A DNA stretch of 5,805 bases from Candidatus Eiseniibacteriota bacterium (lineage in GTDB: Bacteria; JAFGKV01). Positions 988 to 5,714 of the stretch are shown in pieces; the first letter of the stretch is position 1, and the number at the start of each line of letters is the position of its first letter. The position numbers were made by a program, and so were the translations under genes. A model generated the notes under the pieces. The model made no database searches. It was not told where the DNA came from and was given only the letters and a program-made list of their open reading frames with translations. Location of the stretch: the NCBI GenBank assembly GCA_025453925.1, contig JALOPK010000221.1, positions 1 through 5,805 on the forward strand. The letters run 5' to 3'.

Positions 988-2118
988 TTGTCGATCACTC
1001 ATGCCACCTCGGTGTCCGAGCGCCGGCTTGCCGTGCGCCTTCGTCCGCCTCGGGGGTCGCGGAATGCCACTCCGGACAATCTCAACAGGCGATCGCCTCG
1101 GCGCAATGGAGGGGCGGCTTCCGGGCTGCATGGTTTCCGCGGTCTCCGTCTTCCTGCGATCGCATCGCTGGCGGGATGCGCCGGGCTCATACTGCGATGC
1201 GGCCAGGCGGATCCTTCCATCGGCCCTCCGCTCGCCACCGGGAGCATCGTTGTCACCAGCGCCCCCGATTCCGCGGCCATCTATCTCGACCGCCTGCAGA
1301 TGGGGCTCGTCACCCCGGATACCCTCGAAGAGATTCCGCCGGGGCTCCACTGGGTCACCGTGGAGAAGCCCGGATTCACGCCGATGCCCTGTTCGCTTCA
1401 GGTCCAGGTGAGCGCCGGGACGACGGCTTCCGCGCACTTCGAGCTCACGGCCGCGTCGCCCCGGCCCGTCCTGTTCGAGAGCTTCACCAATACCGGCTGC
1501 ATGCCCTGTGCCGAGGCCAACCCGATGTTGTACGCGTTGGTCGACGGGCAGGGGATCGACCGGGTGGTCCTCCTGGAATTCCACCCCGGATTCCCCAGTC
1601 CGCTTGACCCCTTCTATCTTGCCCAACGGGTGCTCATGGACGGCCGTGTCGCCCTCAACGGCGTCGCGCAGGCCCCATGGCTCGTGGTGGAGGGTACGAC
1701 CGGGCTGCAGCCCGTCTCGGAGCAGGACGTACAGGCAGCCCTGGCGGCAGCCGTGCCGCAGAACGCGGTCGACCTCATCCTCGCCGCGCAGATCTCCGGC
1801 AGCGCCCTCACCTGCTCGCTGGGCGCCGCGGCGGCCGTCCCGGGCACGTACACGCTGACCGTGTTCGCCGCCGACGATCTGGAGGAGTTCGAGACCGCGC
1901 CGGGCAGCAATGGCGAAAAGGAGTTCCGGCACGTGGTGCGCGGGGTCATGCCGGTGCCGTGCGGGGAGGAAGCCGAGCTCTCCTCCACCGTCGTCTGGCG
2001 GGTGTGGAGCACGGTGCTTTCCTGGCATCAGGAGGGTGAGCCCGTGACCATTGTCGCCCACGCCCGGAGGTCGGATTCCCCCGTCACCGTGGGGCTCGAT
2101 GTTCAGCAACTGCCGTAA
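988..2118 (+). CDS. PEGA-domain, Omp28-like thioredoxin-fold putative lipoprotein (376 aa as read; start doubtful)
   Basis: From TTG 988 the product has an Arg-rich lead of about 60 residues, then a lipobox LAGC with the lipidated cysteine at C64. A PEGA domain follows (about 85-154: GSIVVTSAPDSAAIYLD, then PPGLHWVTVEKPGF). An Omp28/thioredoxin-like domain comes next (about 160-258) with FESFTNTGCMPC (C171, C174), the family-typical LDPFY (206-210) and an APW segment placing P230 near the expected cis-proline. The C-terminal part (260-376) is beta-rich with FRHVVRGVM (313-321), like the C-terminal region of Omp28-related proteins. The predicted location is the inner face of the outer membrane or the periplasm. 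The role is probably thiol/disulfide exchange or a structural thioredoxin fold; the partner is unknown. The N-terminus is suspect: frame and third-position GC suggest a one-base disruption near 1154-1156 (see findings). A gap of 31 bases separates it from the next gene. Confidence 0.85.
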   Translation: MSITHATSVSERRLAVRLRPPRGSRNATPDNLNRRSPRRNGGAASGLHGFRGLRLPAIASLAGCAGLILRCGQADPSIGPPLATGSIVVTSAPDSAAIYLDRLQMGLVTPDTLEEIPPGLHWVTVEKPGFTPMPCSLQVQVSAGTTASAHFELTAASPRPVLFESFTNTGCMPCAEANPMLYALVDGQGIDRVVLLEFHPGFPSPLDPFYLAQRVLMDGRVALNGVAQAPWLVVEGTTGLQPVSEQDVQAALAAAVPQNAVDLILAAQISGSALTCSLGAAAAVPGTYTLTVFAADDLEEFETAPGSNGEKEFRHVVRGVMPVPCGEEAELSSTVVWRVWSTVLSWHQEGEPVTIVAHARRSDSPVTVGLDVQQLP

Positions 2119-2137
2119 GTTCGTCGTAAGACAACGT

Positions 2138-2142
2138 GGAGG
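2138..2142 (+). promoter_or_regulatory. Shine-Dalgarno GGAGG that fixes the next start at GTG 2150
   Basis: GGAGG lies exactly seven bases before GTG 2150-2152. The in-frame GTG at 2144 is one base away and the ATG at 2165 is 22 bases away, so 2150 is the best start. It also gives a clean signal peptide. Confidence 0.75.
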
Positions 2143-2149
2143 TGTGCGC

Positions 2150-3451
2150 GTGCGCGTCATATTGATGGCTGCTTCGGTTCTTCTCACCTCGCTGCCGCTC
2201 GAGGCGGATGTCCACGTCACCATGGACCGGTACGCCTGTGTGGCGGAGCCGACGAGCCAGACCGGGCTGGCGGTGGATTTCTACGGAGATGTGTCGAACA
2301 CGGGAACGTCTGCCGTGTCCCTGACGTGCAAGCTGGCGACGAGCCAGCCTCAGGAATGGCTGCCGCCGGGCGTGTGCATCGGGGTGTCGTGTTTTCCATC
2401 GGACATGGAGTTCACCGTGGAACTCCCGCCGAACAGCCAGGACGAGATACACCTGACCTTCTATCCATACGACTCTGCGGGCAAGGGGATCTACTGGTTC
2501 CGGTTCGCCCATGACGCGATGGCGGACAGCGCACGCATGGAGGTTCTCTCCGGCGTGCCTTCGCTGCTCGTTGACGACGACGACGGCGATGCCTCCGAGA
2601 CCTTCGTGGAGCGGGCGCTACCGGCAGACCGGGCATTCCTCACGTGGAGCCAGGATCTGGAGCCCCTGGCGTCCTCCGACGTCGCGCTGCTGGAACGGAT
2701 CATGTGGATCACGGGTGGCTCCCCCGCGGGGTGTCTGTCCCAGGACGAGGCCGATGTGCTCACCGCGCTGCTGGAAAGCGGAGGCAAGGTGCTCCTGTCG
2801 GGGCAGAACGCGCTGGAGGGCGAAGTCGGAGCGGAGTTCGGGCAGGGAGAACTGGGTGCGACCGTCGAGGCTGCCTCGGTCGACTCCCGCCACATCCAGG
2901 GCGCGGCGGGTACCTCCTTCGAGATCGTTTCCTTTGACATCGCCGGGGGCGACGGCGCGGACAACCAGACATCCCCCGACGTTCTTGCCGCCAACGGCAC
3001 CGCCTTCCGAGCCCTGCGCTATGGAAGCGGCGAAGTCTCCGCGGTGGCGAGGGTAGGGCTCGCGGGCCGCCGCAGTCTCGCCTGCGGATTCGGCGTGGAG
3101 GCCTGCGCCGACTCGACCGTTCTGGAGGGCTCGCTGGATCTGCTGCTCGACTGGCTGGATGGGTTGGTGGCCGGAGACAACGCCCCGCGGGAGCGGCCTC
3201 TCGCACTCCGGGTGCGCCCGAATCCCACCGGCGGGGTCATCACCGTGGATCTCTCGGCGCCCGAGGGAGGCATCGCCCGGATCTGGCTCACCGATCTCTC
3301 CGGTCGCCTGGCCGGCGAACTCCATCACGGCGTCTGGTCTGCGCGGCCGCTCAGGCTGCCCCGCCTTCCGCGGGGGACGTACCTGCTCTGCGTCGAAACA
3401 CCCACCCATGCCGCTTCACAACCGCTGGTCATCCTGGAGGAAACTCGATGA
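2150..3451 (+). CDS. Secreted protein with Ig-like, GATase1-like and T9SS-type C-terminal sorting domains
   Basis: The GTG start gives 433 aa. The signal peptide is about residues 1-19 (MRVILMAASVLLTSLPLEA). A beta-rich Ig-like domain (about 20-135) contains EWLPPGVC and a cysteine pair C76-x4-C81. A middle region (about 138-338) begins LLVDDDDGD and has IMWITGGSPAG (184-194) and GGKVLLSGQN (211-220). This is the Rossmann-like layout often seen before sorting domains in FCB secreted proteins, usually described as glutamine-amidotransferase-like. No catalytic Cys-His-Glu triad is obvious, so enzymatic activity is not claimed. The C-terminal domain (about 350-430) has VRPNPTGG, LTDLSGRLAGEL, LPRLPRGTYLLCVE and a final PLVILEE. 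This matches the T9SS type A sorting / FlgD-like Ig pattern and implies surface delivery or release. The stop overlaps the next start (ATGA at 3448-3451). The natural substrate is unknown. Confidence 0.88.
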   Translation: MRVILMAASVLLTSLPLEADVHVTMDRYACVAEPTSQTGLAVDFYGDVSNTGTSAVSLTCKLATSQPQEWLPPGVCIGVSCFPSDMEFTVELPPNSQDEIHLTFYPYDSAGKGIYWFRFAHDAMADSARMEVLSGVPSLLVDDDDGDASETFVERALPADRAFLTWSQDLEPLASSDVALLERIMWITGGSPAGCLSQDEADVLTALLESGGKVLLSGQNALEGEVGAEFGQGELGATVEAASVDSRHIQGAAGTSFEIVSFDIAGGDGADNQTSPDVLAANGTAFRALRYGSGEVSAVARVGLAGRRSLACGFGVEACADSTVLEGSLDLLLDWLDGLVAGDNAPRERPLALRVRPNPTGGVITVDLSAPEGGIARIWLTDLSGRLAGELHHGVWSARPLRLPRLPRGTYLLCVETPTHAASQPLVILEETR

Positions 3452-3960
3452 TACTCCTCGCCATTCTGTTGCTGGCCCTCCCCGGAGTCGTCCGTGCGGA
3501 TGACGCGCCTGCGTTCTGCCTTCCCGATCTCTCCCGGGAGAAGATCTGCCTGGATGAGCTCATCGAGAAGGGCCCCGTCGTGCTGGATTTCTGGGCAACA
3601 TGGTGCGCGCCATGCGTGAGGGCACTCCCGCACCTTCAGGCGTTGAGCGAGGAGTTTGCCGACCGTGGAGTGACCGTCGTCGGGATATGCGCGGATACGC
3701 CGAAGACGGTCTCCCAGCTGCCCCAGTTTGTGCGGGGCAGGAAGCTGACCTTCACGATCCTTCTGGACACCGACAATGCCGTGATGCGCAAGTACAAGAT
3801 CGCGAACCTGCCGTACACCTGCATTATCGACACCAGTGGCGCGCTGGTCTACTCGCACCTCGGCTACAAGCCGGGAGATGAGCGTGAGCTCCGGAGTCGC
3901 CTCATTGATCTTCTGGGAGTCGCCAGCGGGGCGGCCGGCGCGGGGAGTTCCGCGAAGTGA
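3448..3960 (+). CDS. TlpA/ResA-type periplasmic thioredoxin-like protein (CAPC)
   Basis: The 170-aa product starts at ATG 3448 with GGAGG (3436-3440) seven bases upstream, overlapping the previous stop by four bases. An N-terminal signal (about 1-17, MILLAILLLALPGVVRA) exports it to the periplasm. The TlpA/ResA-like domain follows: LPDLSREKICLDEL (25-38), VVLDFWATWCAPC (44-56; active-site C53 and C56), VTVVGICAD (75-83), and the cis-proline loop NLPYTCIID (120-128; P122). HLGYKPGDERELRSRL (137-152) is a common ending in FCB homologues. The family reduces disulfides in exported proteins, using electrons from a CcdA/DsbD-type membrane protein not present in this window. Four extra cysteines (C24, C34, C81, C125) occur where relatives usually have other residues. 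The family call is firm; the substrate is inferred only from neighbours. Confidence 0.95.
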   Translation: MILLAILLLALPGVVRADDAPAFCLPDLSREKICLDELIEKGPVVLDFWATWCAPCVRALPHLQALSEEFADRGVTVVGICADTPKTVSQLPQFVRGRKLTFTILLDTDNAVMRKYKIANLPYTCIIDTSGALVYSHLGYKPGDERELRSRLIDLLGVASGAAGAGSSAK

Positions 3961-5447
3961 GTCGCTGGCTCGTCTCGCTGGTCATTGTCTCCGCGGGCGT
4001 CGCATGGGCCTCCGTCGACGCGGGCGGCGGCACCATCAGCATCGGGAACAGCCTCCGCTACTCTCTCAGCCAGGAGACCAACGAAGAGATCCTCGAGGAT
4101 TACTTCGATGTGGACTACACGCACGGCCCGTTTCTGGCGCGGCTCCGGTATGAAGTGTTCCAGCCATCGGAAGAGCGCCGGGACCGGGAGGGTCAGGTCT
4201 TCCGCGCGGTCGGCGGGGAGACCCAATGGGGCACACTGTGGGTCGGCAACTTCTACGGGCTCTTCGGCAAGGGGATGGCCTTCCACGGCTATGAAGACCG
4301 GGACCTCCGTGTCGATACTTCCCTGGACGGGCTAAGTCTGGATCTGGAACACGGGCCCGCGTCGCTGAAGGCATTCTCGGGAAGGACGGCCGCCCACACT
4401 ACGGTGTTTCACGGCGCTGATGCGGAGGTGCGCCCCCTCGCGGGGTTGGCGCTGGGCGGCAGCTACCTCTCCCGCCGCCAGACGTCATCAACGGGGTACG
4501 TCGCGCCTGATCTGGAGTTGGGCACCGGTCGCATTGACGTCAACGTCAATCCGGTCGGATGCTTCGGTCTCGATGTGGGGCCCACCTACCTGTCCGCCGA
4601 GGCGGGCCAGCGCTCCAGGAGCGGGGCCGCGGAGAGGGGAGAGGGGTGGTTTGCAGCAGTGGGGACCTCCCTGCTCGGCGCCGCGGTGGGATTCGAGTAC
4701 AAGGACTACCTGCACATGGGCGTGGTGGCTGAAGGCAAGGAATACACGACACCGCCTCCGGCTGCCATGGAGCACGCCTGGACGCTCCTGGCCCGTCACT
4801 CCCACGAGCTGAATCCCGACGACGAGAAGGGCTTCCTCGGCCGGTTGGAGTGGCAGGCCACGGACATCTTCGGGCTGACTGCGTCCTACTCGGTGGCGCA
4901 GGACCAGCGCGACACCGAGGTGTTCAGCGAGGCGATGGCGGAAGCCCGGATCGCGGAAGTCTCCAGAACGCCCGTCACGGTGGCATGCGCGCGCACGGAG
5001 GAATTCCTCGGCGTCGCGCCCACCGCCGATCGGAATGTGGATGACCGGCGCACCCATCTCACGTTCATCGGTGACGTCACATTTCCCCTCCATGGTCCCT
5101 GGACCGGGCGGTTCTCGGGGGAGCACCAGCACACCGATGGTGATGCGGTCGGTGAGTTCGATCTCGAACACCTGGAGCTGGAAGTGTCGCGTTCACCGGG
5201 AATCAGCGTCGCGCTGGTGGGCGAATTCAGCAATGTCTCCCGGATCCAGCAGGACTTGCCCTGGCTGTCGGTGTTCGAGGAGCAGACATCCTGGTTCTCG
5301 GCGCAGTGCGTGCTCGACATTGCCCCCGGGCACCAGTTGCGAGTCGTGGCAGGGTCGCGCCCCGAGGGTAAGGTTTGCGCCGGCGGCGCCTGCCGGACGG
5401 TACCGGCGTTCAAAGGGATCGAGGCCCAGCTGTCCAGCCTATTCTGA
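3957..5447 (+). CDS. Outer-membrane beta-barrel protein, DUF6029-like, with C-terminal CxGGxC motif
   Basis: GTG 3957 overlaps the upstream TGA (GTGA), with GGAG at 3944-3947 nine bases before it. The product is 496 aa with a signal peptide (about 1-19, MSRWLVSLVIVSAGVAWAS). The rest alternates polar and hydrophobic residues with many Gly and aromatic residues in a repeating beta-strand pattern, and it ends in phenylalanine (F496), as outer-membrane barrels do. The segment FGKGMAFHGYEDRDLRVDT (103-121), followed by LDGLSLDLEHGP, resembles the conserved N-terminal part of DUF6029-type proteins of Bacteroidetes and relatives. Close to the C-terminus is VCAGGACRTVPAFKG (473-487), with C474 and C479 four residues apart. 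Three other cysteines (C202, C344, C451) are scattered. Barrel character is well supported; the DUF6029 label comes from recalled family features and should be confirmed by profile search. The function of the family is unknown. It is the last gene of the operon. Confidence 0.88.
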   Translation: MSRWLVSLVIVSAGVAWASVDAGGGTISIGNSLRYSLSQETNEEILEDYFDVDYTHGPFLARLRYEVFQPSEERRDREGQVFRAVGGETQWGTLWVGNFYGLFGKGMAFHGYEDRDLRVDTSLDGLSLDLEHGPASLKAFSGRTAAHTTVFHGADAEVRPLAGLALGGSYLSRRQTSSTGYVAPDLELGTGRIDVNVNPVGCFGLDVGPTYLSAEAGQRSRSGAAERGEGWFAAVGTSLLGAAVGFEYKDYLHMGVVAEGKEYTTPPPAAMEHAWTLLARHSHELNPDDEKGFLGRLEWQATDIFGLTASYSVAQDQRDTEVFSEAMAEARIAEVSRTPVTVACARTEEFLGVAPTADRNVDDRRTHLTFIGDVTFPLHGPWTGRFSGEHQHTDGDAVGEFDLEHLELEVSRSPGISVALVGEFSNVSRIQQDLPWLSVFEEQTSWFSAQCVLDIAPGHQLRVVAGSRPEGKVCAGGACRTVPAFKGIEAQLSSLF

Positions 5448-5690: not shown

Positions 5691-5714
5691 CACTATTCTA
5701 ACGTTAGAATAGTG
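5691..5714. promoter_or_regulatory. Perfect 24-bp AT-rich palindrome, probable operator
   Basis: The half-site CACTATTCTAAC (5691-5702) is followed immediately by its exact reverse complement (5703-5714), with no mismatch and no spacer. The core is conspicuously AT-rich in an otherwise GC-rich tail. TAGAAT (5705-5710) inside it resembles a -10 box, with a poor -35 candidate TTGTGG (5684-5689) 15 bases upstream. This is the expected look of a dimeric repressor site overlapping a promoter. The regulator and controlled gene are not in the window, and I do not recognise the half-site as that of a specific family. Confidence 0.6.

Follow-up and report, generated by a model that had tools for sequence, protein, structure and literature searches.

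The stretch of DNA analyzed here (the window) is the whole of a 5,805-base contig, C243, from a 3.9 Mb metagenome-assembled genome (MAG) of Candidatus Eiseniibacteriota (the source genome, G000), and it carries four genes that an earlier note on this DNA had read as an operon with a shared thiol or redox role. We find that this cluster most plausibly specifies an outer-membrane thiol-disulfide module, in which the TlpA-like product of gene 3 acts as the dedicated redox partner of a pair of hairpin cysteines in the DUF6029 barrel encoded by gene 4, an interpretation to which we assign a probability of roughly 55%. The recurrence of these genes as neighbors, an invariant cysteine pair in DUF6029, and TlpA-barrel fusions in two lineages all speak for the proposed redox role. 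A literature search for papers describing a TlpA-DUF6029 module returned none, and on our best reading the module is previously undescribed. Comparisons were drawn across a phylogenetically unbalanced sample of loci (L-numbers) and genomes (G-numbers), the latter mostly MAGs, with fragmentary contigs and with neighbor counts taken from simple open reading frame (ORF) calls; the nearest named relatives of the window are MAGs of Candidatus Fermentibacteria (L059 and L060), followed by those of Zixibacteria, KSB1, Neomarinimicrobiota, Acidobacteria, Fibrobacteres, and Calditrichaeota.

Gene 4, which had been described as merely DUF6029-like, is a genuine member of the family (PF19494; 82.5 bits against a cut-off of 27, in two matching stretches). 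All structural statements made here are predictions, drawn from AlphaFold2 (AF2) models, DSSP, and fold matching. Modeled from 69 aligned sequences, gene 4 is predicted to form a 24-stranded barrel (pLDDT 93.3, pTM 0.88) in which the turns that follow even-numbered strands mostly comprise two to four residues and those that follow odd-numbered strands are longer. This pattern would be expected if both termini of the barrel are periplasmic, a probable orientation that would place the 23/24 hairpin on the extracellular side. At only ~20% identity among DUF6029 proteins, a set of residues is nonetheless nearly fixed (G97, G106, G125, P267, G466, G471, C474, G477, C479, and G487), and alignment and model together place most of these in loops on the presumed extracellular side. 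Inspection of the alignment revealed C474 and C479 in all 68 aligned relatives, including members detected by their N-terminal half alone, and no other conserved cysteine column in these 68 sequences; in two members (L107 and L110) the CxxGxC motif takes the form CNGAxC. By the DSSP register of the model, residue 475 lies opposite residue 478 and thus C474 lies opposite C479, so that the two cysteines face one another at the tip of the last hairpin, where they probably form a disulfide. The DUF6029 gene of G002 (L020, 7426-8908) is split by a frameshift, through either real decay or an assembly error.

Fold comparison of the gene 4 model returned as best matches the FimD/PapC usher pores (Z 18-20), which it resembles in barrel size (FimD, Z 19.6, root-mean-square deviation (rmsd) 4.3 over 364 residues), as it does MtrB of the MtrCAB complex (Z 15.6, rmsd 3.9, 354 residues). 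These proteins share only ~7-15% identity with gene 4 in the aligned parts, and neither multihaem cytochrome nor pilus families appear in the neighbor tallies listed for DUF6029 loci. The 18-strand Occ porins match at similar Z with higher rmsd than the ushers, and a sequence search uncovered no close solved homologues of either gene 1 or gene 4.

Gene 3 scores as a member of both the AhpC-TSA (92 bits) and Redoxin (72 bits) families, and its CxxC cysteines (C53 and C56) and cis-proline (P122) are invariant across 35 relatives (alignment A11). The protein resembles the TlpA/ResA/CcmG oxidoreductases in its domain, CxxC motif, cis-proline, and signal peptide, but differs from them in its association, which is with a barrel of the outer membrane and not with the maturation of cytochromes; since it falls below every named equivalog cut-off (for example, 94.6 bits against 170 for the ResA model NF002854), we refer to it as TlpA-like only.

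The neighborhood of DUF6029 genes ties the two proteins together. Among 78 loci with enough flanking sequence, TlpA is the gene immediately before DUF6029 in 66 and forms a fusion with it in two (together 68/78; the automated count gave 64 adjacent and 12 without, L020, with its split barrel, and L098 being reassigned by eye). The pair recurs across many bacterial phyla, and its adjacency is not a matter of chance; the earlier note had named two findings that would refute its reading, neighbors that do not recur and a DUF6029 family without conserved cysteines, and on both counts the outcome was favorable. DUF6029, far from being the orphan barrel it was first taken for, turns out to be the most conserved partner of this TlpA. 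The single-ORF fusions, L024 and L027, belong to different families and are 25% identical; no second signal peptide was found in the linker of the L027 fusion. Long open frames that resembled fusions in L098, L101, L113, and L146 were rejected, as TlpA lies in another frame there. Directly upstream of DUF6029 in L108, at 3370-4329, is a gene whose product contains two TlpA domains in tandem.

A survey with a TlpA profile, trained in part on linked TlpA genes, covered twelve genomes, each of which held between one and nine matches. In the seven that encode DUF6029, the linked TlpA was the best match (187-226 bits, with the runner-up at no more than 124), and in the five that do not, the best match reached only 63-114 bits. 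In a fairer comparison, with genomes from outside the profile, three that showed no linkage yielded unlinked TlpA genes scoring 211 (G073), 198 (G070), and 194 bits (G369), the last of these with two Omp28 matches 1.7-3 kb away. Linked TlpA genes also cluster on a tree, with 4 label changes as compared to 18.3 when labels are shuffled. Taken together, the linkage, the two fusions, the unlinked orthologues, and the single invariant cysteine pair strongly indicate that TlpA and the barrel are functionally connected.

The simplest inference is that TlpA acts on the C474/C479 pair. In the module that we favor, TlpA would be the periplasmic oxidoreductase dedicated to a 24-stranded barrel of the outer membrane, and the two invariant cysteines would close the last hairpin of this barrel on its extracellular side; TlpA would most likely form or correct the hairpin disulfide during barrel assembly, and would remain with the barrel in those lineages where the two are fused. 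A PEGA-domain, HBP35-like lipoprotein (gene 1) would serve as another outer-membrane thioredoxin and a partner of the same barrel, and the product of gene 2 would be an optional, lineage-specific client or passenger. The presence of DsbD/CcdA in G000 indicates that periplasmic reducing power is available, although the direction of electron flow in the module may only be surmised; maturation of the barrel disulfide is the cautious form of this reading, and a relay through the barrel the bolder one. A comparable case is LptD, a large outer-membrane barrel with cysteines that are acted on by thioredoxin-fold enzymes of the periplasm, the Dsb catalysts. DUF6029 and TlpA would likewise pair a barrel with a thioredoxin-fold enzyme that works on its cysteines, but, unlike in LptD, there is only one hairpin pair in DUF6029, and the gene for the oxidoreductase lies alongside or is fused; LptD is absent from the fold matches listed for gene 4.

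Several observations nevertheless weigh against a dedicated TlpA-barrel partnership of this kind. DsbD is nearly universal (53 of 60 genomes) and hence does not discriminate, and the hairpin cysteines are predicted to be extracellular, so that a periplasmic TlpA would be unable to get at them after barrel insertion. A folding helper would need no 1:1 fusion to its substrate, and the fusions are thus easier to reconcile with a stable complex than with a single maturation step. In five genomes where the pair is not linked (G126, G392, G274, G138, and G401), TlpA matches reach no more than an intermediate 131-153 bits, and the 4 label changes on the tree leave a single clade of linked TlpA genes unsupported. 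Lastly, the gene for the selenocysteine synthase SelA adjoins DUF6029 in nine loci (for example, L023, 10190-11554; downstream genes of the A9 set), which may mean that some of these neighborhoods arise by chance.

The earlier note counted two thioredoxin-fold proteins in the operon, and gene 1 indeed joins gene 3 in this class, by virtue of its predicted fold. Its sequence misses the Omp28 models (16.5 bits against a cut-off of 150 for NF033782, and no match to PF11551 at E-values up to 1) and contains a PEGA domain that the note's description lacked. The AF2 model (pLDDT 93) most closely matches Porphyromonas gingivalis HBP35 (5y1a; Z 22.9, rmsd 2.5, 213 residues), followed by DUF1223 (2axo, Z 19.3), Omp28 (2r2c, Z 12.1, C-terminal domain), and thioredoxins (Z ~11), and predicts a thioredoxin domain followed by a β-sandwich domain, as in the HBP35/Omp28 fold. 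Within alignment A8, the second cysteine of the CxxC motif is invariant and the first is conserved in at least 90% of sequences. Gene 1 is thus like HBP35 and Omp28 (PF11551) in its predicted fold, its CxxC-bearing thioredoxin domain, and its export past the inner membrane; it differs from HBP35 by its lipobox and PEGA domain, and a type IX secretion system (T9SS) tail was not detected in its sequence. The thioredoxin activity of HBP35 depends on the two cysteines of that protein, which also binds hemin (PMC2907840); HBP35 reaches the surface via the T9SS and is encoded by a monocistronic gene (PMC3120885). A surface position may be supposed for the product of gene 1.

Omp28-like genes lie within 4.5 kb of DUF6029 in 40 of 80 loci, again across phyla. 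PF11551 occurs in one to seven copies per genome among 20 DUF6029 genomes, which were partly selected for a nearby Omp28, and by manual count about half of the 43 matches fall within ~5 kb of DUF6029. In Zixibacteria, the position of gene 1 is taken by a protein that combines PEGA with a domain of TlpA type, from which it seems that the PEGA-thioredoxin role is filled by different thioredoxin families. Eight Omp28-like neighbors (in L063, L095, L104, L107, L109, L111, L131, and L135) have an in-frame TGA at the first CxxC cysteine, as in FTNTSUGGC and TGTWUGFCPYA (where U denotes TGA); these sequences are consistent with selenoproteins.

Gene 2 was originally assigned a T9SS-like sorting domain. 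The resemblance to such a tail holds, but the scores are marginal and stay below threshold (18 bits against 27 for the Pfam model, 22.2 against 23 for NCBIfam); we regard the protein as a probable T9SS cargo. G000 encodes SprA/Sov (357 bits together with frame neighbors, cut-off 200; this was the T9SS part covered by the test) and holds 63 sorting-tail matches. Close homologues of gene 2 proper were found only in Fermentibacteria in this sample, with distantly related domains forming the C-terminal parts of Omp28-like proteins in L026 and L120; the idea of the four genes as one fixed unit thus has to be given up. Sorting tails occur among the neighbors of DUF6029 loci (15/53 upstream and 9/60 downstream), and across 60 genomes SprA and DUF6029 occur together in 10, DUF6029 only in 2, SprA only in 10, and neither in 38 (Fisher p = 1e-4, uncorrected for shared ancestry). 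As G018 and G037 carry DUF6029 without SprA, the T9SS is ruled out as a required partner and is instead a frequent companion. A PorU/PorV-type T9SS operon around L023 was considered and rejected: the C25 protein there scores 43 bits against the PorU cut-off of 420, and the preceding gene is ispG.

The conserved features of the barrel also fit a more ambitious scheme, which we consider unlikely, in which thiol electrons cross the envelope. TlpA, reduced by DsbD/CcdA and lying in or under the wide barrel, would pass electrons to the CxxGxC hairpin and from there to an HBP35/Omp28-like thioredoxin outside, so as to keep surface or T9SS-secreted cysteine proteins reduced. Permanent 1:1 fusions of TlpA to the barrel would suit such an arrangement, as would a 24-strand pore with MtrB, a protein that sheathes an electron carrier, among its fold matches. 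The placement of most invariant DUF6029 residues on extracellular-side loops, the thioredoxin-fold lipoproteins and TGA-containing Omp28-like forms that adjoin the barrel, and the sorting tails and SprA association described above point in the same direction. However, the entry of TlpA into the barrel and the cycling of the hairpin cysteines are steps that the scheme has to suppose, a disulfide in so tight a hairpin may have a structural role alone, and two DUF6029 genomes of the sample lack the T9SS. A related version, slightly less probable again in our view, casts DUF6029 as the outer-membrane step of such a relay: TlpA, docked either inside the barrel or against it, would pass reducing equivalents via the two invariant hairpin cysteines to external lipoproteins of thioredoxin type, some of them with selenocysteine, and the cell would thereby control disulfides on its surface.

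It is more doubtful still that the barrel and its thioredoxins form a T9SS accessory that matures or attaches cysteine-containing cargo. Neighbors with T9SS tails turn up in several lineages, among them C25 and S8 proteases that adjoin TlpA-DUF6029 in L023 and an M36 protease in L021; these and the association of SprA with DUF6029 would agree with this role, but G018 and G037 have the barrel without SprA, ten of the 60 genomes have SprA without the barrel, and genomes of this kind often hold many sorting tails, as the 63 in G000 attest. Least probable of all, in our estimation, is that DUF6029 serves as an export porin, for example for polysaccharide, with the adjacent TlpA merely oxidizing a structural disulfide or being unrelated. 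The sole paper found to mention DUF6029 reports that Wzi-like barrels near OPX genes share HHpred similarity with it and suggests a part in polysaccharide secretion (PMC9603273). Polysaccharide export genes do not stand out in our neighbor tallies, however, where the constant neighbor is TlpA rather than OPX, and the closest folds by rmsd are the 24-26-strand usher and MtrB pores, even though 18-strand porins share their Z range. The maturation of surface cysteine proteins, which the earlier note had offered as an example of what the operon might do, is one of several possible outputs of the thiol-disulfide module.

If the TlpA-barrel partnership is correct, DUF6029, a family so far without a function, would gain a concrete and testable one, as a barrel with a dedicated and sometimes covalently attached thiol oxidoreductase. 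Were maturation its only purpose, it would newly join the outer-membrane proteins that are served by a disulfide catalyst of their own, and would do so in many poorly studied phyla; were the cysteines to cycle, it would open a route for reducing power through the outer membrane, which is usually thought to be without active redox control, and could account for surface thioredoxins such as HBP35.

Table 1. Positions of the four genes and their principal motifs in the window.
Feature	Position	Strand	Basis
Gene 1: PEGA-domain lipoprotein, predicted HBP35/Omp28-type thioredoxin fold	988-2118	+	PEGA 38.7 bits, AF2 pLDDT 93
Lipobox LAGC of gene 1, Cys codon	1177-1179	+	sequence
PEGA domain of gene 1	1240-1449	+	38.7 bits
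CMPC active-site motif, gene 1	1498-1509	+	sequence and alignment A8
Gene 2: exported protein, fold unassigned, weak T9SS type A sorting tail	2150-3451	+	sub-threshold profile scores
T9SS C-terminal sorting-domain-like tail, gene 2	3218-3433	+	TIGR04183, 22.2 bits, E 4.4e-4
Gene 3: TlpA/ResA-like predicted periplasmic thiol-disulfide oxidoreductase	3448-3960	+	AhpC-TSA 92 bits
CAPC active-site motif, gene 3	3604-3615	+	sequence; invariant in alignment A11
Gene 4: DUF6029 outer-membrane barrel, 24 predicted strands	3957-5447	+	PF19494 82.5 bits; AF2 model
Invariant CxxGxC hairpin (C474-AGGA-C479), between barrel strands 23 and 24	5376-5393	+	alignment and DSSP of model

The tight linkage of the four genes is confirmed by a 31-nt gap between genes 1 and 2 and by 4-nt overlaps between genes 2 and 3 (ATGA) and genes 3 and 4 (GTGA), all on the + strand. 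Each product carries a predicted export signal, as had been proposed, that of gene 1 including a lipobox that sits behind an unusually long N-terminal stretch; gene 1 begins at a TTG codon, with a GGAG motif 7 nt before it. A role in defense was discarded, the four genes being without any PADLOC match. Upstream, a divergent gene on the - strand (2-952) encodes a hydrophobic, probably multi-pass membrane protein without a Pfam match, and this gene adjoins the operon in L019 and L020 also. Located 3' of the operon, at 5691-5714, is a perfect 24-bp palindrome, CACTATTCTAACGTTAGAATAGTG, which is possibly an operator site.

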